Part shown: piece after piece, positions 3,928-29,376 of the stretch
How the letters are laid out: each line of letters starts with the position of its first letter
How positions within the stretch are numbered: position 1 is the stretch's first letter
Source of the DNA: Bacteroidota bacterium
GTDB taxonomy: Bacteria; Bacteroidota; Bacteroidia; Flavobacteriales; Schleiferiaceae
DNA length: 33,813 nt
Assembly (NCBI GenBank): GCA_003045865.1
Contig: PZPB01000024.1
Span: 1-33,813, forward strand
Reading direction: 5' to 3'
Position numbers and translations under genes: made by a program
The notes under the pieces: model-generated
Databases searched by the model: none
What the model saw: only the letters and a program-made list of their open reading frames with translations
Told to the model about the DNA's origin: nothing

Positions 3928-3933
3928 TAATTA
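3928..3933 (+). repeat. Target-site duplication TAATTA, left of the IS
   Basis: TAATTA directly precedes the left terminal repeat of the insertion sequence and is repeated directly after its right end at 4729-4734, the expected footprint of a 6-bp staggered insertion. Confidence 0.75.
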
Positions 3934-3975
3934 ACGTGAGTTCGATATAAAAAAGCAAAAGTTTTTGCAAAATAA

Positions 3976-4036
3976 AAGCAGTTATTTAGTATATTTAAGT
4001 TTTTGAATATCAAATATTTAAACTAAATAACTGCTT
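3976..4036. repeat. Perfect 15-bp inverted repeat inside the IS, upstream of the transposase
   Basis: AAGCAGTTATTTAGT at 3976-3990 is the exact reverse complement of 4022-4036, with an AT-rich 31-base loop. It lies between the left terminal repeat and the transposase start. It may act as a terminator blocking read-through into the transposase, or be a binding site. The role is inferred. Confidence 0.6.
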
Positions 4037-4042
4037 AGGCTT

Positions 4043-4717
4043 TTAAAGGATAAAGTCACTGAGATTTTATGCATGACAGACGATTTCTGCAAAGAAATGG
4101 ATCGGGTCATAGATCAAAATTCAATCGTAGAAGATGCCGGTAAAGCGAGACGCAAGAAACCTAGTAGAATGTCAGGTGTTAGCTTAGAACTAGCATGATT
4201 CTCTTTCATTTAAAGGGATACCGCTGCCTAAAGCACTTTTATTTTAATCATATCACCCAGCATATACGGGATGATTTTTCGCAAACTGTCTCCTACAATC
4301 GTTTCGTGAAGCTTCAAAAGAAATGTATTCTCCACATGGTCTTATTCCTACAGACCTGTTGCGTGGGTCAGTGCTCGGGTATTTCTTTTATGGAATCTAC
4401 TGTAATCAAATCTGTCAACCCAAGCGAGAAAAGCAGAACAAGGTCTTCAAAGGCATCGCTTCTAAGGGGCGCAGCACAATGGGTTGGTTCTTTGGTTTTA
4501 AGCTACACATCATCATTAATGAGCGCGGAGAAATCATTGATTTTTTGATCACCCGAGGCAATGTGGATGACAGAAAGCCCCTAAAAGACATGAGTTTCCA
4601 TGATAAAATTATTTGGGAAGCTTTTTGGAGACCGCGGGTATCTTGGAAAAGACCTTTACAGAGGAGCTTTTTGTTAATGGTATTCACCTCCTTTCAGCGA
4701 TTGAGCTAAACTTATAA
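4043..4717 (+). pseudogene. IS982-family transposase, frameshifted and truncated
   Basis: The protein can be pieced together across at least four frame changes. Segment 1 (about 4047-4180) reads DKVTEILCMTDDFCKEMD and RRKKPSRMS. Segment 2 (4195-4410) reads MILFHLKGYRCLKHFYFNHI, QTVSYNRFVKLQKK and GISFMESTVIK. Segment 3 (about 4415-4605) reads REKQNKVFKGIASKG, GWFFGFKLHIIINERGE and GNVDDRKPLKDMSFHDKI. Segments 4 and 5 (to 4717) read LFGKLFGDRGYLGKDLYR and ELFVNGIHLL in two further frames. The order and motifs match IS982 transposases (DDE type). The conserved Asp expected in the SFMDST motif is Glu here. The C-terminal part containing the last catalytic Glu is deleted, so the enzyme cannot be active. 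Confidence 0.85.
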
Positions 4718-4728
4718 CGAACTCACAT

Positions 4729-4734
4729 TAATTA
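4729..4734 (+). repeat. Target-site duplication TAATTA, right of the IS
   Basis: Direct copy of the six bases at 3928-3933, immediately outside the right terminal repeat. Confidence 0.75.
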
Positions 4735-4749
4735 GGGACCATAAACAGT

Positions 4750-4829
4750 AATAAGGGCCTGGGAAAGATTATTAATTAAGGGCTAAAAAAATGTTTCCAA
4801 TAAATTAATAATCCATACCAGGCCTTATT
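4750..4829. repeat. 80-bp nested inverted repeat (long hairpin)
   Basis: Outer arms AATAAGGGCCTGG (4750-4762) and CCAGGCCTTATT (4818-4829) pair with one bulged G. Inner arms GATTATTAATT (4767-4777) and AATTAATAATC (4803-4813) pair perfectly, leaving a 25-base loop. The right arm runs into a T-rich stretch. It sits 16 bases beyond the IS target duplication and 120 bases upstream of the DUF4105 gene. It may be a terminator, a small palindromic repeat element or a structured RNA; only the pairing is directly visible. Confidence 0.6.
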
Positions 4830-4937
4830 TTCGTCGGCCCTCTAAAGCTACTGCTCATTTCGTGTTTTTTTTATAAAAAATCTTGGGCAATAGTTTTTTG
4901 TTAAACTTACTTTAGTTTTAGATTCAACTCAGCTTAG

Positions 4938-4944
4938 TACCTTG
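4938..4944 (+). promoter_or_regulatory. Weak -7 promoter-like box before the DUF4105 gene
   Basis: TACCTTG, a one-base-short version of TAnnTTTG, ends five bases before the ATG at 4950. A second candidate is TACTTTAG further upstream (about 4908). Neither has a clear -33 partner. Confidence 0.3.
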
Positions 4945-4949
4945 CTGCC

Positions 4950-7273: not shown

Positions 7274-7281
7274 ATGTGAAT

Positions 7282-7566: not shown

Positions 7567-7583
7567 AATTCTTCTTTAGTTGA

Positions 7584-7591
7584 CAAAAGTA
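7584..7591 (-). promoter_or_regulatory. -7 promoter box of the GNAT/barrel transcript
   Basis: On the minus strand the sequence reads TACTTTTG, a perfect match to TAnnTTTG, 17 bases before the GNAT start codon. No clear -33 element. Confidence 0.5.
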
Positions 7592-7858: not shown

Positions 7859-7864
7859 TAACTA
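7859..7864 (+). repeat. Target-site duplication TAACTA, left of MITE copy 1
   Basis: TAACTA directly before the element, repeated at 8126-8131 directly after it. Confidence 0.75.
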
Positions 7865-8125
7865 ACGTGAGTTCGACGTAAAATTAGGCCTCAGACCTCT
7901 TATAAATAGTGGGTTTCAAGCCGAAGCAGTGAAGCAATAGCGGGCTATTGTGAGCTGCTGAGGCGTGGAAAGCCGCTTTTTAGAAGGGGCCTAAACGGAT
8001 TTTCCAATAAAAATGAAAATCCTGCATCTAGCTCATTTGCTGTAGCCCGCTACAGCTGCACGATCCAGACTAGTCTTTTCCTTCCATTGAAAATCTGAGG
8101 CTCTAATTTATTGTCGAATTCACGT
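7865..8125. mobile_element. MITE, full-length copy 1 (261 bp), related to the IS982-type element
   Basis: Begins ACGTGAGTTCGACG and ends CGAATTCACGT. The terminal inverted repeat extends imperfectly for about 31 bases: left ...AAATTAGGCCTCAGA, right read inward ...AAATTAGAGCCTCAGA. Internal hairpins include CAATAG/CTATTG nested in GCAG/CTGC and GGGTTTCAAGCC/GGCGTGGAAAGCC, then GGATTTTC/GAAAATCC, then GCTGTAGC/GCTACAGC. It has no coding frame of note. The outer 11 bases match the ends of the IS at 3934-4728, and the copy is about 95% identical to that at 29123-29370. It lies 131 bases before the first giant T9SS gene and could influence its transcription. Confidence 0.85.
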
Positions 8126-8131
8126 TAACTA
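8126..8131 (+). repeat. Target-site duplication TAACTA, right of MITE copy 1
   Basis: Direct copy of the six bases at 7859-7864. Confidence 0.75.
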
Positions 8132-8256: not shown

Positions 8257-11200
8257 ATGAGAAAATTATTACTATTTCTAACTTTATCTTGCGCTTGGCT
8301 GTTCTCGGTCGGGCAGGGTACACTAACCACTTTTCCACCTTTAACAGCTAACAACGGGCAAAGCGGTGTTACTTTTCAGGTAAGCTCCACTTCTCCGGCC
8401 AATATAACGGCGATCGGTTGTGTGGTTAATGCAGGTGTCACATCTGCGGATGTTTGGATTAGAGTGGGTGGTGTTTCCTCTGCCGGTGCGCCTAATATTA
8501 CCGTAGCTGGTGGTTGGACTCAAGTAGTTACCGCCGGTACCGTAACTGGAGCAACAGGTACGAGTATTGCTCCCATAGCCATTGCTACTCCCATTGCTAT
8601 TCCAGCTAATACACCTGTTGGAGTTTATATTGGGGCTGGTTTAAGATATCAGTCAGGTACTGCAGCTGATGTAGTTACTTACACTGATGGCACCTTTACC
8701 GTGGATGTATCGAATGGTGTATCCTATGGAGGAGCTGCTCCAAACCCAACCTTCAATCCAAGAAGATTCTTAGGTTCAGTAACCTATGCTTTAGCGGTTA
8801 CAGGTAACTGTACACCTTTTACTGGATTTTTAATTGATAGTATTTCTTCAAGTGCTTCCAAGTTAAGCTGGACCCCTGGAGCAAGTAACTCATCTTTTAA
8901 AGTTGAGTATGGTGTGGCAGGCTTTACCCCAGGCACAGGAACCACTGTTACAGGAACTTATCCTGGTTCACAGCCTCCGGTAATTTTAACAGGCTTAAAT
9001 CCAAATACTAATTATGATGTATGGTTAGAGGAATATTGTAATACGGGTGCTGATACGGTAGGTTTTCCTGCGCCTCAAAGCTTTACCACTACAAAATTAT
9101 GTGCGGCTCCAACGGCCTTAACCGATTCCAACTTAACTTCTAATTCTATTGATTTAGGATGGGCTCAAGCAGGTTCTTATAACTCAGCTTGGATTCTTTA
9201 TGGTCCTGCAGGAACTACTCCTGGTAGTGCCGGTTGGATGATTGATTCAGTGCTATCGCCAGCCACTACTTTTACTATCACAGGCTTAACCTCTAGTACC
9301 GCTTATGATATTTATTTAGCCACCAATTGTGGTTCTGTAAACGGTATAAGTGATACGGTAGGTCCTATTAGTATAACTACGCCTATTTCTGGTCCGCAAG
9401 GACTTAATTGTACAGTAGGTAGTGCTGGTCCGTTATTCTCTGACGATTTTGAAAGTCAAGGAAGTTGGACTGGTGACTGGGGAACTGGAACTACTGCCTC
9501 TAATTGGAACTACCGCAGTGGGGGAACGGGATCATCTGGTACTGGGCCAAGTGGTGCACATTCAGGTTCTCAATACATTTATGTTGAAACTTCTGGAACG
9601 CCGAGTGGTGCTAACGTGGAAGCGATTTCACCGCGTATTGATTTAAGTACCTCTTTCAATAGTGCAGAATTATCTTTTTGGCTACACGCTTATGGTGCAG
9701 GTATCGATACTGTTAAAGTGCAGGTTGGTAGCACAGCGAGTGGCCCTTGGTCAACCGTGTTTACCAATGTGGGTCAAATCCAAACCAATAATACCGATCC
9801 TTGGCAAAATGTAGGAGTGAATTTAGATGCCTACGTAGGCACAGCTATTCACTTGCGTTTTGTTTATGTACACGGATCTGGCTTTACCGGTGATGTAGGT
9901 ATTGACTTGGTGGAAGTTAATTCTTGCCAAACTTGTCCGAATTCAGGTAATCCAAACTTAGTATTTGTTTCAAGCGATAGTGCTTCTTTCACTTGGTCGG
10001 GTTCAGGAACTTCTTACGATATTAACTGGGGTCCTGCAGGCTTTTCGCAGGGTTCAGGTTCTACTAGTTTTGATAGCACTTCGGTTAATGGTATTTCTAT
10101 AGGCGGATTAATGGGTAATACTAGCTATGACATTTACGTAAGAAATAACTGTAGCGATTCTGCCAATGGTTTTGGCGGCTGGGTTGGTCCTCTAACCTTT
10201 ACTACTTTATGTAATCCTTTTACAGCGCCTTACAGCAATAATTTTGATGCTGATATTCTAGATCAAGCGCCTAACTGTTGGGATAATTTTTTAAGTGGAG
10301 CGAATACTCAATTTTCTGATGCCTATGTATTTACTCCTAGTGCAACCTATCCACCTATTTCTTCACCCAATGTTGTTCAGTTGTATAATTACAACAACGA
10401 TACAACTTGGTTGATTACTCCACAGTTTAGCGATTTAAGTAGTGGCGCAAACCGTATTAGCTTCCACGCGATGACTACGACCACGGCTACCGGTAACGAT
10501 TTAATTATAGGAACAATAGCAAGCCCAAGTGATCGTGCTAGTTTTACCGCAATCGATACAGTTACCGTAACAAGAAACTATGCTCAATTTGTGGTTGATA
10601 TAACTACTGCAAATGGTTATAATGGCACGCATGAGTTTATTGTCTTCAGACATGCCGCTAGTGCATCTTTCCGTACTTACTATATCGATGATTTCGTTTA
10701 CGAAGCCATTCCAAGTTGTAATCCTCCGCTAATTAGCACCTTAGGAGTTAATTATACTACTTCTACCGATGCTGAAGTATTCTGGGGAAGTGGTTCAGAT
10801 GGTGATACCACCTTTATCGAATACGGTCCTTTAGGTTTTACGCCTGGAGTAAACGCATTAGGCACGATTTCGGTTACGGGTTCAATGGACACTGCCTTAA
10901 TTACTGGCTTAACTTCTGAAACAGACTATGAATTTTATATTCAAGATAGCTGCTTTGGCAACGGAACGAGTCCTTATGTAGGACCAGTAGCCTTCAAAAC
11001 CGCTTGTGCTATTAGTAGTGCTGCGATTTTACCATTAGTAGATGGTTTTGAAAATTACACCAGTGGACCAACCTTTACTGGTGCTAACGCTTACTTCTGT
11101 AATCCATCTTATAACTGGACTTTCGTTCCTGCTGGCAACGGTAGAGCGAGATTACAGGCTAATGCTCTTTATTATAATTCTGGTGCGCAAGCCTTCACTA

Positions 11201-14200
11201 TGGATCAAAGCTCATTCCCTTCTCAAGTAGAAACGAATAGCTTAATTATGACCGTTAACCTATCTAACTACACTACCGCCGGTGGGATTGAATTAGGTTT
11301 TGTTATTATGGATCATAGTGCTACGGTTCGTCCAGATGATAAAGTTTATGTGCGTGGTTCGGCTTCGGATCCTTGGATTCAAATCCTTGACTTAATTACT
11401 GCTGTTTCAGGTACAGGTTTCCACGATTCAATAACCAATATTGATATCATGGCCCCAATTACCGCTGCTGGACAAACAGTAGGGGCGGCAACGCAAATCA
11501 TGTTTACTCAGTCAGGCCAATCACAGGCAATTACCGCTACTTGTTGCGAGGGTTATTCATTAGATGACGTAAGTCTAACTGCGGTTTCTTGTCCTAATCC
11601 AACTGGCTTAAATACAAGTGCATTAGTAGATACTTCTGTAACTATGGCTTGGGCCAATAGCGCTTCTGCGGGTCAGTATCAGTACTGGTTTGGTCCTGCT
11701 GGATTCTATCAAGGTACAACTACCGTTGGTGGTGTTAAGCAATATACTACCGCTAGTAGTGTAACAATTGATACTCTTCGTCCTACAACTTGCTATCAAT
11801 TCTTAGTACGCGGTGTTTGTGCACCAGGTGATACTTCGGGTTGGGTAGGTCCCTTTGACTTCTGTACTACCTGTCCAGTAAATTTCAGCATGCCTTACTT
11901 TACTGATTTTGAAATAACAGCTCCAGGTATAGCTCAAGGCAGCCCTGCAGGTTGGGCTAATTGTTGGACAACCTCTGCACCAGGGGGAACTCTAAGATGG
12001 GAATCGGAAGATGCTAGTGGAGCGAATGAGAATTCTTTAAATACAGGTCCTTTCTTGGATAACACCCTTGCGCCTAATACAGGTGGTAAGTATATGTATT
12101 TAGAGACCTCTACTTCAGGAACGTATGCTGATTTAGTTTCTCCAGGAATTAACCTTAATGGTGCCGTAAACCCTCAAGTAGAGTTTGCCTACCATATGTT
12201 CGGAGCTACCATTAATAAATTAGTTTTACTAGCTGAAAACGTTACTACTGGAGCAGTTACTACTTTAGATAGTATCGTTGGTCAGCAACAAACTGCTGGC
12301 TCTGATCCATTTAACACGCATGTGACTAATGTATCTAGTTTAGCTTCAGGATCTTACCGATTCATCTTTAGAGGATATATTGGTACTTCATTTACTGGTG
12401 ATATCTCTATTGATGATGTATTTGTGATGGAAGCGCCTACTTGTCCTCGTCCTGCAGGATTAATGATGGATAGTGCTTCTTTAACAAGTATTACCGCTAG
12501 TTGGACATCTAATGGTACTGGTTCAAGCTGGGCCTTAGAATACGGTCCTTCGGGTTTTACTCCCGGTTCAGGTACTTCAGTAGTAGCAACTTCTAATCCT
12601 TATACCATTACTGGCTTAACTGCAGCTACAGCTTACGATGTTTACGTAGCTGAGATTTGTGGTGCTGGTGATACAAGTATTTCAGTGGGGCCTGTTTTAA
12701 TGAATACTACCCTTTGTAATCCAAGTTCTTTATGCTGGTATCAAATCGATCTTGAAGATTCATTTGGTGATGGTTGGAATGGAGCCCTATTAGATGTGGT
12801 TCAGAATGGTGTGGTTGTAGCAACTTTAGGTCAGAGCTTTACCACTGGAAACCTTTACCAAGATTCTGTACAAGTATGTGATGGCTTAAGCACAGCTTTT
12901 GTTTTATCAGCAGCAGGAGGTTGGCCCTCAGAAGTAGGTATTACGGTTACCACGCCTTACGGTACTCAGGCAGGTCAGTATACTAACTCTCCAGCAACCG
13001 CTCAAGGTGATACCTTAGTTAACGTAGTAATTCAGTGTACTGCTCCAACTTGTCCGCAGCCCACAGGCATTGCAGTTGCAAGTGTTACTGGAACAACGGC
13101 CTCTATTTCTTGGACCAGTATGGGAACAGGAACGGCCTGGGAAATTGAGTACGGAACGGGTACTTTCTTACCTGGTGCAGGTACTACAGTAAGTGCTCCT
13201 ACCAATCCATTTACCCTAACCGGTTTAAATGGTTCTACCAATTACAACGTATATGTACGCGAAATTTGCGGTGCAGGTGATACTTCGGTATGGGCAGGCC
13301 CAATTAACTTCGCTACAGCTTGTGTTACGGTTAATGCTCCTTACTTTACTGATTTTGAAAATATTCCTATCGGTGTTGCTACAGGAACTCCTTTAAGCTG
13401 GAACAACTGTTGGACTGCAAGTACGGGCACTTTCCTTTGGGAGTCTGAGGATGCAACTGGTGCGAATGAGAATTCATTAAATACTGGTCCTTTCTTCGAT
13501 AATACAACTCCTTCTACTGCAGGAGGTACTTATATGTATATCGAAACTTCATCAACAGGTACTGCGGCTGAATTAGTTTCTCCAGCAGTTGACTTTAGTG
13601 GTTTAACTAACCCAGAGTTGAAGTATCATTATCATATGTATGGTGCCACGATTAATAAATTAGTGGTTTATGCTCAAGATGCATCTGGAATAAGAACTGC
13701 CATCGATAGTATTATCGGTCAGCAACAAACGGCGGGTTCTGATAGCTTCCGGGTAGCTACCGTTGATTTATCTACTTTAAGCTCTACTACTTATTCCTTC
13801 GTGTTCGAAGGTCACAGAGGAACAAGCTTTACTGGTGATATCTCTTTAGACGATATTAGCGTAGCAGAGGCTGGTGCAACCACTTCTCCTTGTAATGCTC
13901 CCACTATGTTAGTAGCTACTGCCAATGTAGGTTGTGATTCTGTTGAAGTGAACTGGATGTCTAATACCGGTGGTTCTATTTTAGAATATGGTCCTGCAGG
14001 CTTTGCTCCAGGAACGGGTAGCATGACAGGTATTGTTACTGCACCTTATACTATTACTGGTTTAGCGCCAGGAACAGCATACGATGTGTGGGTTGCAGAT
14101 ACTTGTACTGGTGATACCAGTGCTTATGCTAGTCTTTTAAATACTAGCACTGCAACGGCCCCTGTACCAGTAGCTTCTATTAGTAGCTTTACCGATACCA

Positions 14201-14679
14201 TTATAAATGGACAGTACATTTTAACGGTAGACGCTAGTGGTTCTAATAATGCTACCGCTTACTCTTGGGACTTCGGAAACGGAGTTACTGGTAGCGGTGT
14301 TGCTGATACAGTGGTTTACTTAGGAAATGGTGTTTACACGGTTATTCTTACCGCAACTAATGCTTGTGGTACTTCTACAGATACCATTACCGTAAATGTG
14401 AACATTGGTTTAGAAGATAATCCTCTTGCAAATAGCTTGAATGTTTATCCTAACCCAGCACAATACAGCGTAAATGTTAGTTTCCGAGAAGTAGGAAGTG
14501 CTGATGTACAAATTACTTTACGTGATGCTCAAGGCAGAAACGTAATTAACATGAATGATCGCATGCAAAGTGGAACTTACAGCAATGATATTGATGTATC
14601 TGGTCTAGCACGTGGAATTTACATGTTAGAAATTAAATCTGGTTCTTTAACCGCTCACCGTCGTGTAAGCATTAAATAA
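8257..14679 (+). CDS. Giant T9SS-secreted mosaic of fibronectin-III and MAM-like modules (paralogue 1)
   Basis: Encodes 2140 aa. Signal peptide 1-20; an N-terminal beta-rich domain of unrecognised family (about 21-182). Then eight FN3 modules (about 184-282, 283-378, 565-650, 824-915, 1113-1203, 1398-1485, 1596-1688, 1880-1965), each with the EYGPAGFxPGTGT and TGLxxxTxYDVYVxxxC signature. These alternate with five MAM/cleaved-adhesin-like jelly rolls (about 391-560, 652-823, 922-1112, 1212-1397, 1694-1873). A distinct domain with DSFGDGWNG lies at about 1493-1595. A PKD-like domain is at about 1967-2050 and a type A T9SS sorting domain at 2052-2140 (LNVYPNP, GIYMLEIKSG). It is expected to be exported by the T9SS and attached to the surface or released, acting as adhesin or matrix protein (inference). 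No catalytic motif is seen. MAM-like modules 4 and 5 are clearly recent internal copies. Confidence 0.9.
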   Translation: MRKLLLFLTLSCAWLFSVGQGTLTTFPPLTANNGQSGVTFQVSSTSPANITAIGCVVNAGVTSADVWIRVGGVSSAGAPNITVAGGWTQVVTAGTVTGATGTSIAPIAIATPIAIPANTPVGVYIGAGLRYQSGTAADVVTYTDGTFTVDVSNGVSYGGAAPNPTFNPRRFLGSVTYALAVTGNCTPFTGFLIDSISSSASKLSWTPGASNSSFKVEYGVAGFTPGTGTTVTGTYPGSQPPVILTGLNPNTNYDVWLEEYCNTGADTVGFPAPQSFTTTKLCAAPTALTDSNLTSNSIDLGWAQAGSYNSAWILYGPAGTTPGSAGWMIDSVLSPATTFTITGLTSSTAYDIYLATNCGSVNGISDTVGPISITTPISGPQGLNCTVGSAGPLFSDDFESQGSWTGDWGTGTTASNWNYRSGGTGSSGTGPSGAHSGSQYIYVETSGTPSGANVEAISPRIDLSTSFNSAELSFWLHAYGAGIDTVKVQVGSTASGPWSTVFTNVGQIQTNNTDPWQNVGVNLDAYVGTAIHLRFVYVHGSGFTGDVGIDLVEVNSCQTCPNSGNPNLVFVSSDSASFTWSGSGTSYDINWGPAGFSQGSGSTSFDSTSVNGISIGGLMGNTSYDIYVRNNCSDSANGFGGWVGPLTFTTLCNPFTAPYSNNFDADILDQAPNCWDNFLSGANTQFSDAYVFTPSATYPPISSPNVVQLYNYNNDTTWLITPQFSDLSSGANRISFHAMTTTTATGNDLIIGTIASPSDRASFTAIDTVTVTRNYAQFVVDITTANGYNGTHEFIVFRHAASASFRTYYIDDFVYEAIPSCNPPLISTLGVNYTTSTDAEVFWGSGSDGDTTFIEYGPLGFTPGVNALGTISVTGSMDTALITGLTSETDYEFYIQDSCFGNGTSPYVGPVAFKTACAISSAAILPLVDGFENYTSGPTFTGANAYFCNPSYNWTFVPAGNGRARLQANALYYNSGAQAFTMDQSSFPSQVETNSLIMTVNLSNYTTAGGIELGFVIMDHSATVRPDDKVYVRGSASDPWIQILDLITAVSGTGFHDSITNIDIMAPITAAGQTVGAATQIMFTQSGQSQAITATCCEGYSLDDVSLTAVSCPNPTGLNTSALVDTSVTMAWANSASAGQYQYWFGPAGFYQGTTTVGGVKQYTTASSVTIDTLRPTTCYQFLVRGVCAPGDTSGWVGPFDFCTTCPVNFSMPYFTDFEITAPGIAQGSPAGWANCWTTSAPGGTLRWESEDASGANENSLNTGPFLDNTLAPNTGGKYMYLETSTSGTYADLVSPGINLNGAVNPQVEFAYHMFGATINKLVLLAENVTTGAVTTLDSIVGQQQTAGSDPFNTHVTNVSSLASGSYRFIFRGYIGTSFTGDISIDDVFVMEAPTCPRPAGLMMDSASLTSITASWTSNGTGSSWALEYGPSGFTPGSGTSVVATSNPYTITGLTAATAYDVYVAEICGAGDTSISVGPVLMNTTLCNPSSLCWYQIDLEDSFGDGWNGALLDVVQNGVVVATLGQSFTTGNLYQDSVQVCDGLSTAFVLSAAGGWPSEVGITVTTPYGTQAGQYTNSPATAQGDTLVNVVIQCTAPTCPQPTGIAVASVTGTTASISWTSMGTGTAWEIEYGTGTFLPGAGTTVSAPTNPFTLTGLNGSTNYNVYVREICGAGDTSVWAGPINFATACVTVNAPYFTDFENIPIGVATGTPLSWNNCWTASTGTFLWESEDATGANENSLNTGPFFDNTTPSTAGGTYMYIETSSTGTAAELVSPAVDFSGLTNPELKYHYHMYGATINKLVVYAQDASGIRTAIDSIIGQQQTAGSDSFRVATVDLSTLSSTTYSFVFEGHRGTSFTGDISLDDISVAEAGATTSPCNAPTMLVATANVGCDSVEVNWMSNTGGSILEYGPAGFAPGTGSMTGIVTAPYTITGLAPGTAYDVWVADTCTGDTSAYASLLNTSTATAPVPVASISSFTDTIINGQYILTVDASGSNNATAYSWDFGNGVTGSGVADTVVYLGNGVYTVILTATNACGTSTDTITVNVNIGLEDNPLANSLNVYPNPAQYSVNVSFREVGSADVQITLRDAQGRNVINMNDRMQSGTYSNDIDVSGLARGIYMLEIKSGSLTAHRRVSIK

Positions 14680-14731: not shown

Positions 14732-14793
14732 GAATCATTTTAGTGGCTATATTTGAGAAAGTTCGATAGATTATTTAACCCTAAATTTTGATT

Positions 14794-17700: not shown

Positions 17701-20700
17701 GATAATAGCAGCTCCAGCTTACCCTTAATGATTGTTTCTCCCCCTACAACCGATCTTACGGCAGGTGACAAGCGCGTAGAAGTGAGAGCAAGACAAAGTT
17801 TTGCGGCTGTTCCGCCCACTCAATTGGTGATTGGTAGTATTGCTAATCCAAATGATGCCAGTACTTTCTATCCTTTAGATACTTTCGATTTAACGGATGC
17901 AAATCCCCATGATCGTTATGTAACTAACTTTACTACGGCCAACGGTTATAATGGCACGGATGCCTACTTTGCCGTTGCACATGGTGCCAATGCTACTTTC
18001 CGAACTTTGTATGTTGATGATCTTACTTATGAAGTAATTCCGTCTTGTCCTCAGCCTTCAAATCTTACTGTTTTGGCGGTTGACTCAATGAATGCCACCG
18101 TTGCATTTAGTCCTTTTGGCGGTAGTGCGGGTAACTTCCAAATTGAATATGGCCCAGGTGGCTTGCAAGGTTCGGTGTTAAATAGCCTGCTATTAGTAAC
18201 AAATGATACTGTTAACTTAAGCAGTCTCTTATCAAATACGAATTATTGTTTCTGGGTGCGTGAAATTTGCGCTCCTGGTGATACTTCTGCTTGGTCAGAC
18301 CCTTTCTGTTTTAAAACACAATGCCAAGCTATTAGTGCGCCTTATTTTAACAATTGGGATAATCTATCGGCAGGTAATGACTTAGGCTGTTTTATAAAAA
18401 TCGAAGATCCTAGTTTGGTTAGTAGTAATTTTTCAGGTTTAACCATTCAAAGTTCAACCTTCAACCAGCCGGTGTCTAATCCAAATGTGGTAGAATTTGA
18501 TAATGGCAGTCCCATTGCCTCTCCTTTAATTATGGTTTCTCCTGCCACAACAGACTTAACCGCTAGCGATAAGCGTTTGCGATTCTTCGCTCGTTCTAAC
18601 TCTGTTTTCAACTTGCGGACCTTAATTGTGGGTTCAATAACCAATCCTGTAGATGCAAGTACCTTTAGTCCTTTAGATACTTTAACAATGACAATTTCAA
18701 TGTTAGAGTATATAGTTGAGCTTACTGCTGCTAATGGTTATAATGGAACAGATCAATACTTTGCTATTGCCCATGGTCAAAATTCTACTTTCCAGACTAT
18801 TTATTTAGATGACCTTAATTATGAAGTAATTCCTTCTTGCGTTCGCCCTAATGCCTTAGCTACTGCTAATATCACACAGTCTACAGCAGATCTTAGCTGG
18901 GCTAATGCGAATGGAAATACTAGTGCATCATATGAAATAGAATATGGCTTAGGCTTATTAGGTGATCCTTCAAATACGAGGGTAATTCAATCAGCAGCTA
19001 GTCTTAATCTTACAGGATTAACTGCTGGTACCGGTTACTGTTTCTGGGTTCGGGAAATTTGTGCTCCCGGAGATTCAAGTTTCTGGGCTGGCCCGGAGTG
19101 TTTCTCTACGCCTTGTCCTACTAGTTATGCGGCTCCTTATTTTACCAACTTCGAAGGTATTACCATTGGAATTGCCGCTGGTACGCCGGCCGGTTGGGAA
19201 AATTGCTGGACGCATAATACCATAACTGGTTCGGTAAGATGGGAGTCGGAAGATGCTTCTGGCGCTAATGAAAACTCTACCGGAACTGGTCCGTTTTATG
19301 ATAATACTTTCCCATCTACTACTGGTGGAACTTATATGTATTTAGAGACATCTACTTCGGGTGGTCCGGCCGAATTAATTTCTCCCGGAATCGATATTAG
19401 TACTGTTTCTAACCCTGAGTTAGAATATCACTACCATTTGTTCGGCGCGACCATTAATAAGCTGGTTATTTACGCAGAAAATGCAACTGGAACCAGAACT
19501 GCCATCGATAGCTTAATTGGAGCTCAGCAGGCTGCTCAGGCCGATCCCTTTGTACGTCGTGCAGTATCTTTAAGTTCTTTAACTTCTGGAGTATATAAGT
19601 TTATCTTCGAAGGGCATCGAGGAACATCCTTTACAGGAGATATATCTATTGACGATGTAAGTGTTCAGCAGGGTGCAAGTTGTGCAAGACCGCTAAGTCT
19701 TAACACTAGCCCTATCTCTACAAATTCTGCCGTAGCACGTTGGACACCCTCTGGCAGCCCAGCTTCTTACCAAGTAGAATACGGTTCCACGGGCTTTACT
19801 TTAGGCACCGGTACTAGTTTAACTAGCACGGCCGATTCTTTAGTAGTAACTTTTGCAACGGCCAATAACCTTTGCCAAGAGATCTATGTGCGAGCTATTT
19901 GTGCGCCTGGTGATACAAGTTTATGGGTTGGTCCAACCGCTATTTGCCCGACTGCTATTCCTTGCGACAGCATTGATCAGTATGATGCGAGCTTGAAACT
20001 TTACGATCAATCGGCTCTATTTGTTCCTTGGGCTGGTAACGCAGGTGATGTAGAAATTTCTACGGCGCAAAGTGCTTCTTCACCACAGTCTTTCCGCATT
20101 CACGATGGAGGAACCGCCGGCTTCTCAGATTTGGTAGCTTTGTTTGATACCATTTCATCTGGAACTTGGGAAGTAGCTTTTGATATGTATGTACCAACAG
20201 GCAAAGGAGCATACTTTAATATTCAGCAAAATTATATTGGTGGAGCAGCTGGTAACCTTTGGGGTGGTGAAGTATATTTCCTCGCAAATGGTACCGCTCA
20301 AGCAGTTTACACGACGGGATCTACTTTGGCAGGCTCATTTAACTATACTCAAGGTCAATGGAATAGTATTTCTACTGTAATTGATCTAGATAATGATAGT
20401 ATCTGGTTTGAGTTGAATGGTAGTTCAACCACTGTTGGTTATACCTATTCTAATGCCAATGCGGGAGGCCCATTACAGTTTAATGGTGTAAACTTCTACT
20501 CTGGTGTTTTAGCGGGTAATACTTACTCAATTGAATACTTTGTAGATAATTTCTGTATTAATCCTCGCGCAACTGCTTGTCCAGATCCGACCAATTTAGT
20601 GGCAACTGCTAATGTTGCTTGTGATAGCATTGAGTTAGATTGGACTAGTAATAGTGGCAGTTCGGCATTGGTTTACGGACCTAGCGGTTTCAATCCTGCT

Positions 20701-21363
20701 ACAGGAGGAACTACGGTAAATAATATTACCGCTCCTTATTCGGTAACGGGATTAACCGCTAATACTGCCTACGATTTCTACGTTTCTGACATCTGCGGAA
20801 GCGATACTAGTAATGCCATAAGTATTACTAATAGTACTGCTAATGCGCCTCAGCCAGTGGCTAGTTTTACAATTGATAGTGCCATTGTGGGTGGGTCTTA
20901 TCAGGTTTACCTAGACGCATCCGCTTCTACCAATGCTACTTCTTATCAATGGAGTTTTGGTAACGGTTCTAGCAGCAGCGCGGCGATTGATACCATGATA
21001 TATAGCGGTAATGGTAACTATACCATCACCCTTATTGTAACAAATGCATGTGGATCCGATACCGCTACGTTCACGACCAATGTAAATATTGGCCTAAACG
21101 AAAATGCATTGGCTAGCAGCCTAAGTGTTTATCCAAACCCAGCTCATCAAACGCTTAATATAAGTTTCCGTGAAGTGGGAAGTGCGGATGTGCAAATCGT
21201 TTTACGCGATGCTCAAGGCAGAAGCGTACTAATGATGAACGATCGAATGGAAAGTGGTACCTATAGCAACGGTTTTGATGTATCAGACTTAGCTAGTGGT
21301 ATTTATATGCTTGAAATTAAGTCGGGTTCTTTAACTGCTCATCGCAGGATAAGTATCAAATAA
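14794..21363 (+). CDS. Giant T9SS-secreted mosaic of fibronectin-III and MAM-like modules (paralogue 2)
   Basis: Encodes 2189 aa from the ATG at 14794; a TTG six bases upstream is less likely because the signal peptide starts MKKKLLLFF. Layout: signal 1-20; the same N-terminal domain (about 21-182) as paralogue 1; FN3 modules near 183-278, 279-367, 533-625, 819-910, 1085-1175, 1351-1440, 1631-1720 and 1929-2015. These alternate with MAM-like jelly rolls near 373-532, 632-818, 918-1084, 1182-1350 and 1447-1630. A concanavalin/LamG-like domain (about 1728-1926, with GTWEVAFDMYVP and YFVDNFCIN) replaces the DSFGDGWNG domain of paralogue 1. PKD-like 2018-2098; T9SS type A tail 2100-2189, nearly identical to that of paralogue 1. 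MAM-like modules 3 and 4 are close internal duplicates. The role is probably adhesion or surface matrix; ligand unknown. Confidence 0.9.
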   Translation: MKKKLLLFFSLLALVSWGQGTITTSPPLTPNNGQSGITFAVSSNTPTEITGISNIFSTGATTASVWVRVGGVNGPPTISVANGWQEVIVNAPLTGANNTSLVAIPFGANVINIPANTPVGIHIAGNTRYQTGTAADVVTYTDGTFTVSTADSVSYGGGLPNPTFNPRRFVGSVTYALGISGGCANLFSNFNIGSIATDSAQINWTPGTGNTGYRIEYGQAGFIPGSGTFVTGTYPANNPPLNISSLIPDTDYDVYFTEYCGTDSVYFPAAQPFTTLPVCPAPSGLSIIALDSVSVTFVYTATTDSLSWEWGPGGFTQGTGTSGTSIGDTITIGGFMPNTNYDLVLTSDCSLRGDGLSRSTTLNFTTDCGYGVARFTENFDGSTFPCLRAFTDVSVGTPVVTITTAFNPTSAPQQLQLNNSSATGSNQDVILYFQPFFGISALNKMVEFNAKTTSTTPTTLDIISIPNADSAGIYNVIQTVTLTTSNQRFTINLDAASNYNGTDATIGFRHGAQNTFQSILIDDVVYDVIPTCLPIDPFTVTTSVGGSDVYLNWASTGSVPGANVQYGTAGFTLGTGTTVATTDTFAIVTGLVDNTLYDFYIQDSCGANDLSVWVGPFSVLTGCSAPLPTNLPFADGFENFSTGPTFNGTTNLCASTYDWRFDASNETASRMRLQAGTTFYRNGTQALTMDHSPSAPAIESNFLTLTVNLTNYTTSGGIELGFYIMSHGQEASPDNRVWVRGNPSNPWVEIVNLDLIRSGNGVYDSVQKLDIVAPLNAAGQSVGALTQIRFGQRGRFSASSINFSDGFTFDDVTLDAVSCPQPSALSISNLFDTTATLNWTGTSSAGQFEYWFGPGGFYQGTTTVGGVKAFANASGILVDTLNAQSCYQFLVRAVCGPGDTSTWAGPFEFCTPCSPISAPYFENWDALATGKDLGCFGKIEDPAFFTSTFAGALVTQFGVPFSGARQIELDNSSSSLPLMIVSPPTTDLTAGDKRVEVRARQSFAAVPPTQLVIGSIANPNDASTFYPLDTFDLTDANPHDRYVTNFTTANGYNGTDAYFAVAHGANATFRTLYVDDLTYEVIPSCPQPSNLTVLAVDSMNATVAFSPFGGSAGNFQIEYGPGGLQGSVLNSLLLVTNDTVNLSSLLSNTNYCFWVREICAPGDTSAWSDPFCFKTQCQAISAPYFNNWDNLSAGNDLGCFIKIEDPSLVSSNFSGLTIQSSTFNQPVSNPNVVEFDNGSPIASPLIMVSPATTDLTASDKRLRFFARSNSVFNLRTLIVGSITNPVDASTFSPLDTLTMTISMLEYIVELTAANGYNGTDQYFAIAHGQNSTFQTIYLDDLNYEVIPSCVRPNALATANITQSTADLSWANANGNTSASYEIEYGLGLLGDPSNTRVIQSAASLNLTGLTAGTGYCFWVREICAPGDSSFWAGPECFSTPCPTSYAAPYFTNFEGITIGIAAGTPAGWENCWTHNTITGSVRWESEDASGANENSTGTGPFYDNTFPSTTGGTYMYLETSTSGGPAELISPGIDISTVSNPELEYHYHLFGATINKLVIYAENATGTRTAIDSLIGAQQAAQADPFVRRAVSLSSLTSGVYKFIFEGHRGTSFTGDISIDDVSVQQGASCARPLSLNTSPISTNSAVARWTPSGSPASYQVEYGSTGFTLGTGTSLTSTADSLVVTFATANNLCQEIYVRAICAPGDTSLWVGPTAICPTAIPCDSIDQYDASLKLYDQSALFVPWAGNAGDVEISTAQSASSPQSFRIHDGGTAGFSDLVALFDTISSGTWEVAFDMYVPTGKGAYFNIQQNYIGGAAGNLWGGEVYFLANGTAQAVYTTGSTLAGSFNYTQGQWNSISTVIDLDNDSIWFELNGSSTTVGYTYSNANAGGPLQFNGVNFYSGVLAGNTYSIEYFVDNFCINPRATACPDPTNLVATANVACDSIELDWTSNSGSSALVYGPSGFNPATGGTTVNNITAPYSVTGLTANTAYDFYVSDICGSDTSNAISITNSTANAPQPVASFTIDSAIVGGSYQVYLDASASTNATSYQWSFGNGSSSSAAIDTMIYSGNGNYTITLIVTNACGSDTATFTTNVNIGLNENALASSLSVYPNPAHQTLNISFREVGSADVQIVLRDAQGRSVLMMNDRMESGTYSNGFDVSDLASGIYMLEIKSGSLTAHRRISIK

Positions 21364-22007: not shown

Positions 22008-22013
22008 CAGCGA

Positions 22014-23584: not shown

Positions 23585-23599
23585 TTCTAAAATTTTAAG

Positions 23600-23607: not shown

Positions 23608-23625
23608 ATTTATTAAAGCAGCTAT

Positions 23626-23671: not shown

Positions 23672-25024
23672 ACTGCAATGTCAGGATTAAGTCATCTTGG
23701 TGAACCATTGCATTGGCTTTCAATGCTATTCGGCCCACTTCTCCCGCAAAGGGTGCTAAAATGGTACTTTCCATTTTCATGGCTTCAATAACAAAAAGGG
23801 GATCATTTTTTTCTACTTTTTATCCTTTTGTAACCACAACACTCACCAATTTGCTTGGTAAAGGTGCGCCAATATCTTTATCGCTGCCAATTTTTTCCTT
23901 TGAAACTTCATTAGAGAAAATGCTTTGGTCCTTCATTTCAATGTGGCGGTTTTGACCATTGAGCTTGAAGTAAACATGTCGGTTTCCATTGGGATAAGGT
24001 TCATTTACGCTCAAGAAGCGAATGAGAATGTTTTTTCCTTGATCAATTTCCACCATAAACTCTTGGTCTGGCTGCATACCGTACCAAAAAATTAGACTAG
24101 GGATGCGCCAAACTTCACCATAGGAATCTTTAAAAGTGGCGTAATCCTTAAATACTTTGGGATAAAGTTTAGAGGAAAGGAAATCTAAAAAGGTATAACT
24201 CTGCCCAAGGTCCTTCTGAAATTCTGGAAACTCCTTATCAAAGTTAATAGGATCCAAATGGGCATTCGGTCTGTCGGTGTAAGCCTTTTCGTTTTTTAGG
24301 ACCGCTTTTTGAAATTCTTTTGGGAATCCGCCGAAAGGCTGACCTAAATCGCCTTTAAAAAAGCTTATGACCGAATCGGGGAAGGAGATCTCATTCGCTT
24401 TCGCTAAGATGTCTTCCTTCGAGTAATTATTGGTGGTCATAAACATCGCCAAGTCGCCACTACCTTGGAGCTGGGCGTAACTTTTACCACATCGCCCATT
24501 AGCTGATTGGCAGCGCGGTAATTGGTTTTAATCGTATTAAATTTATCCTCGATGCCAAGTCCACGCGCTTGAGGCCTAAGGTTGCTGTATTGCCCGCCGG
24601 GAATTTCATGCTCGTATAATTGCGCTGTTCCCGATTTTAAGCCCGACTCGAAGGGATAATACCAATCTCTCACATCTTCCCAATAATTACTAAATTCAGT
24701 GAGGCGACGGAGCTTGATAGGGTTTTCTCTTTCGAGGCCTTTAAGGCTGGCTACTAGAGAGTTAAAATTGGGCTGAGAGGTAAGTCCACTCATCGAGTCG
24801 ATGGCTACATCTACCACATTAACTCCCGCTTCAATCGCCTTTAAATAGGTAGCCGATTGCATACCAGAGGTGTCATGCGTATGCAGATGCAGATGAATAG
24901 GAATATCAACGACCTTTTTCAATTCGGTAATTAAGGTATAAGCCGCATAGGGTTTTAGTAAACCCGCCATATCCTTGATGGCTAAAATATGAGCACCCAT
25001 ATCTTCAATTCCCCGCGCTAAATC

Positions 25025-25030
25025 TAAATA
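25025..25030 (+). repeat. Single remaining target site TAAATA at the MITE scar in pyc
   Basis: TAAATA (TATTTA on the coding strand, a Tyr-Leu codon pair) abuts the left MITE end and fits the TAANTA pattern of the other copies. The right-hand duplicate was lost with the deletion. Confidence 0.6.
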
Positions 25031-25070
25031 ACGTGAGTTCGACGTAAAATTAGGCCTCAGACCTCTTGTA
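25031..25070. mobile_element. Truncated MITE copy 3 (left 40 bp only)
   Basis: Identical to the left end of copy 1 through GACCTCTT, and to copy 2 through GACCTCTTGTA, then breaks directly into pyc sequence. It lies exactly at the deletion in the carboxyltransferase domain of the pyc pseudogene. Confidence 0.85.
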
Positions 25071-26771
25071 CGAATAACTCTCGGCTACTTTAAGCATATC
25101 AATTGTGCGCATGCGGGTGGCAAGCAGCGATTGGTGCGCATCTTTAAAAGTAGTATCGGTATAATAGATTTTCTTCTCCTTAGCCAACCACTGACTGAAT
25201 TTTTCGGGACCGAGTTCTGTCAGAAGATTTTTTGTGCCCGGGGTATGGGCTGCATGTTTATCAAAATCGGGAACTTTTGCGTTACGGAAGCGTCGATTGG
25301 GGTCTGGGTTTTTGACTTCGGGATTGCCGTTTACAATAAGGTCGGCTGTAAAGTTTAGAATACGGGTGCCTCGGTTTCGGCTAAGTTTTAATTGCAGTAA
25401 CTCGGGATGCTTTTCAATAAAGCTTCCCCCTTGCAATCCTGCTCTAAACTCGGGATGTGAAATTACATTTTGTAAAAAAGGAATATTGTTTTTTACACCG
25501 CGTATGCGAAATTCGGACAAGGCTCTTTCCATGCGGCTTGCAGCTACATCAAGGCTGCTTCCCTAGGCTGATACTTTTAGTAAGCGTGTAGTCGAAAAAA
25601 GGTGAAATTTTTACGCCGGGATGGCTACTGCCTTCGTCTAAGCGAATTCTCATCCCTGCGGCATTGCGATAGGCGATGATAGTGCCATAATCGAGCATGA
25701 AATTATTCTCGGGATCCTCGGTAGTGATGCGACATTGAATGGCAAAACCAATGAGTTTTATTTCTTCCTGAGCAGGTATATTAAGCACAGAGCCATTTAA
25801 AGATTCACCTGCGGCAATTTGAATTTGCGCCTTCACTAAGTCGTAGCCCGTAACCTCTTCGGTAATGGTGAGTTCCACTTGAATGCGCGGATTAACTTCA
25901 ATAAAAAAAATATTTTCCTCCTTATCTAATAAAACTCTTCGGTACCCGCATGGGTGTAAGAAACGGCTCGGCCAATATCAAGGGCATATTGATGCAAAGC
26001 TTGGCGTGTTTTATCACTTAAGGTAGATGCGGGAGCTACTTCCACTACTTTTTGAAAGCGCCTTTGCCCGGAACAATCACGCTCATGCAGATGCACTAAA
26101 TTTCCGTGTAAGTCTCCGAGTAGTTGTACTTCAATGTGTTTGGGATCTTCTACTTATTTTTCTAAAAACACGGTAGGATCTCCAAAGGCTTTGGCCGCTT
26201 CATTGGCGGCCTCACTGAAGGATTTTTTCAGTTCATCTTTGCTTCGTACCATCCGCATTCCGCGACCACCACCACCCGAAGCGGCTTTTAAAATCATAGG
26301 AAAACCAATATCATCGGCCGCCACTAGGGCTTCTTCCGTATTTTTTAAATTACTAGCACCTTTTATTATCGGAACATTCACTTTAAGGGCTAGTTCCTTG
26401 GCGGCAATTTTATTTCCCAGTTGTTCCATTATTTCGGGAGCGGGTCCAATGAAGATTATCCCTTCTTTGGGGCAGCGACGGGCAAACGCCATGTTTTCAC
26501 TAAGAAAACCATAGCTAGGGTGAATCGCATCAATTTTTTGGTTGCGAGCGATGCGCAGTATTTCTTCAATGTCGAGATAAGGTTTTAAGGGATCCTCGTC
26601 TGGACCAATTTGATAGGCTTCAACCGCTTTGTCGCGATGCAACGAATAACGGTCTTCAAAACTATATACTGCAACAGTGGTAATTTTTAGTTCGCTCGCG
26701 GCACGAAACACGCGAATAGCGATTTCTGCACGGTTCGCAACAAGTAGTCTTTGGATGGATTTTGATGGCAT

Positions 26772-27000
26772 AAAGGATGGTTTTTTTAGGAGTTCTCAAT
26801 TTACAGAATTTCCCGCCTTGGATCGAGAGATATAGAGTGAAATTCAGTGAAGAATACGTCTGAAATAGGCTTTTACGTTAATTTTCCCCTATCCCTAGAT
26901 AATTTTAGTCTCTGTTGAAAACTCGATGTTTTTTTTCGCATGGGCTGAACCCTTATCTAAATTTATTACTAATTTGGAGGGCCGATATAGCTTATTGAAA
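26772..27000. other. Divergent intergenic region between pyc remnant and sensor kinase
   Basis: About 230 bases that should hold the former pyc promoter (minus) and the kinase promoter (plus). I cannot point to a clear -7 box for either; ACTAATTTGG near 26968 is a partial match for the kinase. Confidence 0.35.
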
Positions 27001-29109
27001 ATGCAAATCCGACCATTTTTTTCGAGACTATTCAACAGTCTCTCTTTACTATTAATTTTTAGCTTTTGTCAAACTGCCATGGCACAAAGTGCCGAGCTGA
27101 AAGGCAGGATAAAAAAAATGTGGATTGCATTGGACTCTGTAGATGCACAAGATCAGGTTTTGATCCTAAATACTTTAGCACAGTCTTATGCAAGTTTCAA
27201 TTTAGATTCATCTATTCTTACTATTAATAAGGCTATCGAAATTGGTCGCGTTAATGGCTTAGACAGGTCCATAGCGAATAGTTATAATAACTATGGGATT
27301 ATTAGTTTTATGGCTGGAAATTTAGATTCTGCCTTGGCCTTTTATGATGTAGCCTTGAAACTTAACATGAAGACTTCTAATGGGAATGGTGTTGCTCAAA
27401 ATTATAGCAATATGGCCAATGTCTATTTTGTGCGCGGTGATGCCTTTACGGCAGTAGAAAACTATTTAAAGGCCGAACAATACGCTGATTCCATGGGAGA
27501 CTTCAGTGTGTTAGCAGACGTTTACAATAATCTTAGTCAATATTTCCTTGCGGTAAACAACTATAACGACGCTAAGAAATATATTGACAAGTCGATCCTC
27601 ATGGATTATAAAAAAAATGAAGATGAGTTGGTGGCGCAATACATGAATCTAGCTTTGGTTTTTCGCAAAATGGGCCTTATAGATTCGGCCTATTCTTATA
27701 ATAGAAAGGCTTTTAAAGTTACTTATAAAAATAAGCTTCAAGACTCCAAAGCATTGGCCTGTAATGCCTTGGGTAGGATTTTTTTAGACTTGAATAATGT
27801 AGACTCGGCCAATTACTACTATGCTAAGAGCTACGAAGAATCGAAGAATATTGATTTCTACAACCAAAGAGCTAATGCGTTGTGTGGCCTCGGTCAGGTC
27901 GCTCTCCTTCGAAAAGACTTGGCCACTGCGCTTGAATATCTTAAGCAATCCTATAAAGTGGCGCTTGAAATGAAGTTGAAACGGGAGGAACTTGTGGCGC
28001 TCTTCTTTTTAGCTGAAACAAAATACCAACTCAAAAATTACAAAGAAGCCTATCAAGATTTCGCCAAGGCTTCCGAACTAAACGATTCTTTAAATAGTCA
28101 GGAGCAAGTGCGGAAAATGGCAGAATTAGAGCAGCGCTATAAATTTGAGAAGATTCGGGCCTTGGAAAATCAAGAGAGTGATTACCGCGAAGCAGAACTC
28201 CGCCACGAAATAGATGACCAGAGATCGAAACAAATTTTAGTGGTAGTTTTTTTGCTGGTAACTATTCTACTACTGAGCTTAAATATTTACTCAAGACGAA
28301 AAAATAACAAACTTTTAGTTTCCAAAAATTACCGCATTGAAACTCAAAATAAAGAGATTTCAAAACAAAAAGACGCTCTTGATTTACAGCACCACAATTT
28401 GGAAGAGTTGAATACCTTTAAAGACAAGATTTTAGCAGTTTTTGCGCATGATTTACGCAGTCCTCTTTCATCGATACAGGCTTTATTGGAACTAATTGGA
28501 GATGCTAATTTAGACGATTTAAAGCTCTTTCAAAGTCTTACCAAGAAGCTCAATGGGCAAACCATAATTTTATTGCAAAATTTGGAAAACCTACTGGCAT
28601 GGTCTAAAATACAGCTTGGGGCCAAAGAATTAAACAGTTCAATGCTTGTTCATAACGTTGAGAAGGAAATACAATTAGTAGTCGATTTATTTCAGCCCGT
28701 GGCTAATCAAAAAGAAGTAAGCTTAAAACTTTTGGTGCTTAAATCTGAGGGTGATAAATTTATGAACTTTGAAGTCGCACGTTTAATTCTACGAAACTTT
28801 ATTTCAAACGCTATAAAATACAGCGAGAACAGTTCAGAAATTCTAATTAGTGCCGCCTGTGAAAATCAAGTTTGCCACTTTAGTGTAAAAGATTCTGGCT
28901 TAGGAATAGATGAAAAAAGCCAGCACGAAATTTTTAGCGAATCTGTTGTCAGTACTTTAGGAACAGAAAAGGAAAAAGGTAATGGTTTAGGACTCATGCT
29001 TTGCTCCTATTTTGTGAAAGAAGCAGGCGGTAAAATTGGCTTCGAAAGTACCTTAGGTGAGGGTAGTAACTTTTGGTTTGAGCTCCCTCTAGAGGAGCAA
29101 AAGAGTTAG
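27001..29109 (+). CDS. TPR-containing sensor histidine kinase
   Basis: Encodes 702 aa from ATG 27001, chosen because a clean signal peptide follows (about 1-26, ending TAMAQ); the frame stays open to an earlier ATG at 26926. The periplasmic part (about 30-400) is helical tetratricopeptide-like repeats (NNYGIISFMAGNLDSALAFYDVALKL, NMANVYFVRGDAFTAVENYLKAE, and further copies). One membrane helix is at about 412-431, a coiled coil at about 440-475, and HisKA with phospho-acceptor His483 (FAHDLRSPLSSIQ). The HATPase domain has its N box (NFISNAIKYS, about 599), G1 (DSGLGID, about 631) and G2 (GNGLGLML, about 661). This is a well-known Bacteroidota architecture. No response regulator is adjacent, so it is an orphan here. 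Signal and target are unknown. Confidence 0.9.
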   Translation: MQIRPFFSRLFNSLSLLLIFSFCQTAMAQSAELKGRIKKMWIALDSVDAQDQVLILNTLAQSYASFNLDSSILTINKAIEIGRVNGLDRSIANSYNNYGIISFMAGNLDSALAFYDVALKLNMKTSNGNGVAQNYSNMANVYFVRGDAFTAVENYLKAEQYADSMGDFSVLADVYNNLSQYFLAVNNYNDAKKYIDKSILMDYKKNEDELVAQYMNLALVFRKMGLIDSAYSYNRKAFKVTYKNKLQDSKALACNALGRIFLDLNNVDSANYYYAKSYEESKNIDFYNQRANALCGLGQVALLRKDLATALEYLKQSYKVALEMKLKREELVALFFLAETKYQLKNYKEAYQDFAKASELNDSLNSQEQVRKMAELEQRYKFEKIRALENQESDYREAELRHEIDDQRSKQILVVVFLLVTILLLSLNIYSRRKNNKLLVSKNYRIETQNKEISKQKDALDLQHHNLEELNTFKDKILAVFAHDLRSPLSSIQALLELIGDANLDDLKLFQSLTKKLNGQTIILLQNLENLLAWSKIQLGAKELNSSMLVHNVEKEIQLVVDLFQPVANQKEVSLKLLVLKSEGDKFMNFEVARLILRNFISNAIKYSENSSEILISAACENQVCHFSVKDSGLGIDEKSQHEIFSESVVSTLGTEKEKGNGLGLMLCSYFVKEAGGKIGFESTLGEGSNFWFELPLEEQKS

Positions 29110-29116
29110 TCTTTAC

Positions 29117-29122
29117 TAAGTA
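29117..29122 (+). repeat. Target-site duplication TAAGTA, left of MITE copy 2
   Basis: TAAGTA directly before the element, repeated at 29371-29376. Confidence 0.75.
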
Positions 29123-29370
29123 ACGTTAAATTAGGCCTCAGACCTCTTGTATTAGTGGGTTTCAAGCCGAAGCAGTGAAGCAATAGCGGGCTATTGTGAG
29201 CTACTAAGGCGTGGAAAGCCTCTTTTTAGAAGAGGCCTAAACGGATTTTCCAATAAAATGAAAATCCTGCATCTAGCTAATTTGCTGTAGCCCGCTACAG
29301 CTGCACGATCCAGACTAGTATTTTCCTTCCATTGAAAATCTGAGGCTCTAATTTATTGTCGAATTCACGT
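29123..29370. mobile_element. MITE, copy 2 (248 bp)
   Basis: Same element and same orientation as 7865-8125, about 95% identical. The left terminal repeat has lost 11 bases between two ACGT tetramers, so it now starts ACGTTAAATTAGG. The right end is intact (GTCGAATTCACGT). The internal hairpins are kept, and CCTCTT/GAAGAGG near 29217 pairs better here than in copy 1. It sits 13 bases after the kinase stop. Confidence 0.85.
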
Positions 29371-29376
29371 TAAGTA
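29371..29376 (+). repeat. Target-site duplication TAAGTA, right of MITE copy 2
   Basis: Direct copy of the six bases at 29117-29122. Confidence 0.75.

Follow-up and report, generated by a model that had tools for sequence, protein, structure and literature searches.

A MITE family with IS982-type ends in a Schleiferiaceae genome and a candidate TA-anchored target rule

We describe a family of MITEs in the genome of a Schleiferiaceae bacterium that carries the ends of IS982 elements. These MITEs were very probably moved in trans by an IS982 transposase of a Bacteroidota clade with ACGTGAGTTCGA repeats, with joints at TA steps setting the target duplications. This reading draws, at the level of sequence, on the shared ends, the copy number, the duplications, one empty site, the pairing of TA steps and the variable duplication length. 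New are this MITE family and the TA-anchored target rule, although the TA-pair rule may already stand in ISfinder notes or subscription papers. We regard the TA-pair rule as the part deserving specialist attention.

The elements in the window

The window analyzed here comprises 33,813 nucleotides and is an entire contig (C160) of an assembly of 3.05 Mb in 169 contigs, which is 89.9% complete. The end motif A(C/T)GTGA(G/A)TTCG has six exact matches in the window, every one at the IS or MITE elements listed in Table 1, with a chance expectation of about 0.06 by rough estimate. A sequence-only reading of the window had assigned these 11-bp ends to the IS and to all three MITEs. The ends are located where it had placed them, with two reservations: the left motif of the MITE at 29123-29370 is mostly deleted, this end reading ACGTTAAATTAGG, and the element at 25031 is only a left-end remnant. 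Also, the exact TAANTA duplications claimed for the three two-sided elements of the window (TAATTA, TAACTA, and TAAGTA) were confirmed by direct reading. Folding of the full-length MITE was far stronger than that of its shuffles (z −9.9), and no open reading frame of at least 80 aa was present for it in the ORF list. The stub sits in the region of a carboxylase gene.

Table 1. Coordinates of the IS982-type element, the MITEs, and their target sequences in the window.
Feature	Position	Strand	Basis
Defective IS982-type element, 795 bp	3934..4728	+	direct reading and IS982 model match
Target duplication TAATTA, IS left side	3928..3933	.	direct reading
Target duplication TAATTA, IS right side	4729..4734	.	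direct reading
IS982 transposase gene remnant, three frames, without 3′ part	4061..4709	+	
Full-length 261-bp MITE, foldback	7865..8125	+	
Target duplication TAACTA, left	7859..7864	.	direct reading
Target duplication TAACTA, right	8126..8131	.	direct reading
MITE left-end stub, MITE positions 1-40 (40 bp)	25031..25070	+	
Target sequence TAAATA, left side only (no second side)	25025..25030	.	
MITE copy, deletion just inside left end	29123..29370	+	
Target duplication TAAGTA, left	29117..29122	.	read by hand
Target duplication TAAGTA, right	29371..29376	.	read by hand

For the window IS, the IS982 model was the top transposase model (E 4.4e-23 vs 0.0038 for the runner-up IS5). Its best fragment reached 82.1 bits at a model cut-off of 130, still the best among all models, and a relative with the same ends scored 252.9 bits on the IS982 model. 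Membership of elements with these ends in IS5 was rejected on the transposase models. The transposase remnant matches residues 7-46, 52-212, and 193-226 of a 298-aa relative. The left inverted repeat, ACGTGAGTTCG, begins with AC as in the IS982 family, the right end, ATGTGAGTTCG, differs by one base, and the direct repeat of 6 bp is inside the family range of 2-10 bp. The element departs from the IS982 norm, which is a length of about 1 kb and a single intact gene for the DDE transposase; most relatives with the same ends measure about 1010-1050 bp. Because it is broken in frame and its 3′ part is missing, it was not counted as a working IS982 element and is regarded as a defective derivative.

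Searching the genome with the IS yielded one full match and a right-end piece of about 46-48 bp bordering a contig edge; a third hit was the IS matching itself internally. The IS982 model search of the assembly returned fragments only, both from the window IS, and no intact IS982 copy. An intact IS982 element with these ends, as envisaged in the sequence-only reading, is thus absent from this assembly and present, with intact genes, in other Bacteroidota.

The MITE family in the genome

In a BLAST search of the whole genome, 47 matches to the MITE were obtained, which correspond to about 41 places once six second pieces of places already counted are subtracted; this bears out the earlier proposal of a short non-coding repeat family with IS982-type ends. 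A contig edge is reached by at least 12 of the matches, as is expected in a fragmented assembly, in which multicopy repeats are poorly assembled. The MITE ends are those of IS982 elements elsewhere and of the defective window IS. Copies of 98-100% identity are present. Young copies have ends of the ACGTGAG...CTCACGT type, and diverged copies (about 73-88% identical) mostly ACCTGAG-type ends. Shorter forms occur as well, with 160 bp at several places and also with 74 bp and 49 bp. Since short repeats (GGCCT, AGGC) are found at their breakpoints, these forms may be deletions, some of them perhaps post-insertion. A MITE search of 58 related genomes gave one match only, a 30-bp piece. The family is new here and, among the 59 genomes compared, was seen only in this species.

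Target duplications in the genome

Fifteen young two-sided copies, the IS included, were available for analysis of target duplications. Eight of them have an exact 6-bp duplication (TAACTA twice, TAAATA three times, TAAGTA, TAGTTA, and TAATTA) and three an exact 7-bp duplication (TAATTTA, TAAACTA, and GTTTATA). The four copies without an exact duplication of 6-7 bp comprise one with TAAA (4 bp), L013 with a mismatch in 6 bp, and L007 and L037 with none. TAANTA fits 7 of the 11 exact duplications. The strict TAANTA rule proposed from the window therefore fails, since TAGTTA, TAATTTA, TAAACTA, and GTTTATA occur in the same genome; the sequence-only reading had itself named copies lacking TAANTA duplications as evidence against it. 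The fixed 6-bp stagger had to be abandoned too because of the exact 7-bp duplications in 3 of the 15 young copies. From the proposed tight target motif it can be retained that a motif exists; instead of TAANTA, it consists of two TA steps at a variable distance and is found across a Bacteroidota clade.

TA adjoins 41 of the 48 tabulated ends of young MITEs and the IS with a flank of at least 6 bp, a count that scores one end of L008 as a miss owing to a wrong left bound and to which L005 and L006, with a 2-bp flank on one side, contribute one end each; the TA frequency in the window is 0.081. Outside these 48 are the solitary ends L038, L075, L076, L080, L090, L255, L256, L261, L263, L264, L265, and L269, of which, judged by eye, 9/12 are adjoined by TA. 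Fourteen older two-sided copies, whose bounds are less sure, show an exact 5-bp duplication in two cases (TTATA, TTAAA), a 4-bp match in three, and none in nine.

An empty site was obtained for one copy. The MITE at C148:26597-26857 interrupts a methyltransferase gene (domain assigned on the relative L248), which is uninterrupted at the insertion site in all six other species of the genus searched. When the flanks were joined with one TAAATA, the translation aligned to the six sister species without gaps, which fixes the duplication of this copy at 6 bp. The own methyltransferase gene contains stop codons further downstream of the insertion. Also, for the IS200-like gene into which L023 has inserted, the own genome was searched for an uninterrupted version; only the interrupted one was found, so that no second empty site is available.

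IS982 elements and single ends in other genomes

The ends described above occur widely among related IS982 elements of Bacteroidota. The analysis of related IS982 elements took in 45 of 80 loci. The 28 tabulated elements with ACG ends, two rows of which were entered one base off, include 18 with exact duplications of 6-8 bp and 10 without an exact duplication. TA bounds 16 of these 18 on both sides, the exceptions being ATATTTA and TTTATTA. Identical transposases were found next to duplications of different length: in one genome, L145, L146, and L147 have TAAATA, TATAATA, and TAAACTTA (6, 7, and 8 bp), and in another, L168 and L173 have TAAATTA (7 bp) and TATTTA (6 bp). In the transposase tree, the ACG-end elements cluster except for L226, with modest support (82/67).

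Other end types were included. Bacteroidota elements with ACCTG ends show a 5-bp duplication in the 7 rows with an exact one, two of which are one insertion in inverted copy (L224 and L231, identical flanks in inverted orientation, should count as one), and none in 4 further rows, one of which is a base off. Among these exact 5-bp duplications only TATTA is TA-bounded. For Bacteroidota IS982 elements, 5-bp duplications thus go with ACCTGAGTTCGA ends, and the ACCCG-end element L220 of the same order has one of 9 bp. ACC-end types outside Bacteroidota contradict a 5-bp split, with 7 bp in Thiothrix and 6-7 bp in Rhodobacteraceae. In G046, a genome of the same order, many ACCTG ends are paired about 220-250 bp apart and are read as a further MITE; those of the pairs that were compared by eye showed no matching 5-bp flanks.

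Single ends were counted in two samples. In genomes of other Bacteroidota selected for IS982 (150 plus 93 of 245 end matches; 112 ACGTG rows from about 16 genomes), TA adjoins 103 of 112 ACGTG ends, or 83 of 92 when distinct 9-base flanks are counted once. The outer TA is located at 6 bp (40), 7 bp (50), or 8 bp (6) among the 112 ends, and at the next three offsets TA was found at 1 to 9 of 112. The second sample, drawn from the phylum irrespective of IS982 (33 other genomes), covers the first places per genome (10 of 15 for G372); here TA adjoins 48 of 69 listed ends, and 41 of the 48 have an outer TA at 6-8. Part of the 21 ends without adjoining TA are chance matches, which this draw includes (in 395 genomes, the reversed control pattern matched 11 times). 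ACCTG ends (56 rows, counted without 75 ACC rows of G046 and G204) follow a looser pattern, with T at −5 in 45/56, adjoining TA in 32/56, and full TANTA in 20/56.

Beyond the clade, the TA rule is weaker in Rhodobacteraceae and absent in lactic-acid bacteria. The alphaproteobacterial sample of 38 loci contained 26 with both ends and 18 exact duplications of 6-7 bp (16 distinct), and Rhodobacteraceae copies have TA at both ends in 4 of the 16 distinct ones. The duplications of lactic-acid bacteria (ATATTTTT, AGCCAGAT, AAGAGACT, and ATTAAT) show no TA rule. Among 10 plasmid loci and 1 viral locus, 6 of 11 have a duplication, and two of these fit the rule (TAGTATA of Thiothrix and TAATATA of Parageobacillus). 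The scan of viral contigs gave one locus, without recognizable ends.

Proposed mechanism and alternative explanations

In the proposed mechanism, both strand transfers would attach the ...CGT-3′ end of the element to a TA step at its 5′ side. Where two such steps lie on opposite strands at a distance of 6 or 7 nt, sometimes 8 nt, TA-N2-TA, TA-N3-TA, and TA-N4-TA duplications would result. The abutting bases sometimes differ and are nevertheless duplicated (GTTTATA and several alphaproteobacterial cases), which identifies the TA as target sequence and not as part of the element. Together with ATATTTA and TTTATTA from elsewhere, GTTTATA is an exception to the rule. Reading of TA by the enzyme at each joint, and the strand-transfer chemistry itself, are presumed here, as is an intact IS982 copy that would be, or would once have been, present in this genome. 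In a broader version, which we rate somewhat below an even chance, the stagger in this clade would not be fixed: the two transfers would be independent of each other, and the length (6, 7, or 8 bp) would be read from the target. Bacteroidota IS982 elements with ACCTGAGTTCGA ends have 5-bp duplications, as do 2 of the 14 older MITE copies, whose ends are mostly of the ACCTGAG type; the MITE may then have switched the transposase subfamily, ends and length together. What weakens this version is that, among the 14 older copies, 3 show a match over 4 bp only and 9 show none.

A strictly TAANTA target cut with a constant 6-bp stagger would account for the window, whose three two-sided elements all comply, and genome-wide for 7 of 11 exact duplications. 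It is refuted by TAGTTA and by the TA-bounded 7- and 8-bp duplications: TAATTTA and TAAACTA, like GTTTATA, stand beside it in the same genome, relatives add TATTTA and TA-bounded 7-8 bp, and lengths differ between copies of identical transposases. We consider this explanation extremely improbable. Equally improbable is an element of the Tc1/mariner/IS630 type with a 2-bp TA duplication and a chance match of the remaining flank. Adjacency of TA to nearly every end would suit such an element, but the duplication extends to the inner bases and the outer TA, and these ends flank elements encoding IS982 transposases. Moreover, the methyltransferase frame is regained when one 6-bp copy is taken out together with the element, while removal of only 2 bp would leave four extra bases. 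A TA duplication of this type was rejected on account of the duplicated inner bases and the in-frame 6-bp empty site.

That the stagger varies and that flexible, A+T-rich DNA is favored in general, with TA enriched as a flexible step and not specifically read, is unlikely, though to be taken more seriously. The central bases are A+T-rich too (AA 9, TT 7, AT 4, and AG 1 in the 6-bp class of the phylum draw, n=21), and the pattern in the related alphaproteobacterial copies is a looser T..A. Against this, TA reaches 92% at the joint and 0.9-8% at offsets −3 to −5 in the same A+T-rich flanks. The elements might also be extinct fossils whose transposase source has been lost from the lineage, for which we see a chance somewhat short of even. 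The sole assembled IS copy is frame-shifted and 3′-truncated, and the MITE matched 1 of 58 related genomes, by a 30-bp piece. This is countered by the MITE copies of 98-100% identity, by the contig-edge position of at least 12 MITE matches, multicopy repeats being poorly assembled, and by the second IS end at a contig edge.

Mobilization in trans with TA-anchored joints would, by its variable spacing, explain the variable duplication length of IS982 in one clade. The TA-pair rule also gives a simple check for true insertions. If it is true, the target sequence, and no fixed geometry, would determine the stagger, which to our knowledge is unusual for a DDE transposase.

Comparison with known systems

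For Porphyromonas gingivalis, MITE239 with the ends ACGTGAGTTCGATATAAAGGAA...TCGAACTGGCGT and ISPg3 with the ends ACGTCAGTTCGA have been described (PMC4596501). As far as they are described there, MITE239/MITE700 and ISPg3 of this member of the same phylum have nearly the ends of the present MITE, a likeness seen in a comparison of the ends. IS195 and ISPg3 of this species are probably one element. ISPg3 was assigned to IS5 in PMC4596501, the available part of which gives no target rule, whereas the present ends are of the IS982 type; IS195 of P. gingivalis is listed in the IS982 family (PMC7335449). MITECca01 of Cardinium, about 240 bp long, lineage-specific, and present in 169 copies, has as its parent ISCca4 of the IS982 family (PMC9769881). 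Like the present MITE, it is IS982-derived, with ends common to an IS982 element. Unlike in this assembly, intact copies of the parent ISCca4 are present in Cardinium, and a target motif is not described in the available part of that report (PMC9769881). IS982-related MITEs in Bacteroidota are thus already known, and the present family is one more ordinary case among them.

With respect to the target, no IS982 motif was found in the open-licence literature searched, including the available parts of PMC7335449, PMC9769881, PMC4596501, PMC9330008, and PMC10969869. Members of the IS982 family measure about 1 kb, encode one DDE transposase, and have inverted repeats that mostly begin with AC (PMC7335449). 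The direct repeats of the family are variable, with 2-10 bp when present, and its mode of transposition is called unknown in the same review (PMC7335449). In its available part, this review gives variable repeats without a target motif (PMC7335449), whereas in the elements analyzed here the repeat length varies with the distance between two TA steps.

MITE insertions and large ORFs

The MITE stub lies within a pyruvate-carboxylase-like gene that is split over several frames, its biotin carboxylase N, biotin carboxylase C, HMGL-like and PYC_OADA domains falling in separate ORFs. These frame breaks reflect either gene decay or assembly errors. Elsewhere in the source genome (G000), a MITE of 160 bp has inserted into an IS200-like transposase gene (named by eye), splitting it; the target duplication there, TAAA, is 4 bp long, shorter than the rule gives. 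Two giant ORFs adjoin each other in the window and were similar at both start and end when compared by eye; judged likewise, their products resemble repeat proteins that are secreted and carry a sorting domain at the C-terminus.

Locations of the features described
Feature	Location	Strand	Basis
Giant ORF, 2140 aa	window 8257-14679		ORF listing
Giant ORF, 2191 aa	window 14788-21363		ORF listing
Pyruvate-carboxylase-like gene	window 24437-26771	-	ORF listing and domain matches
MITE stub	window 25031-25070		
160-bp MITE (L023)	G000:C66:6143-6306		
188-aa ORF	L186 1165-1731 and related loci		

IS982-type ends in other genomes

In one Rhodobacteraceae assembly, an IS982 element of 1521 bp (L186 and related loci) is present in many copies; inside it a second ORF, encoding 188 aa, runs on the opposite strand and had no match in Pfam or NCBIfam. 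In six compared Bacteroidota genomes (G490, G348, G191, G372, G493 and G046), IS982-type ends are paired at a spacing of ~200-500 bp, and these pairs are probably additional MITE families. The outer ends of neighbouring pairs in G493 have flanks that match by eye, which suggests composite transposition.
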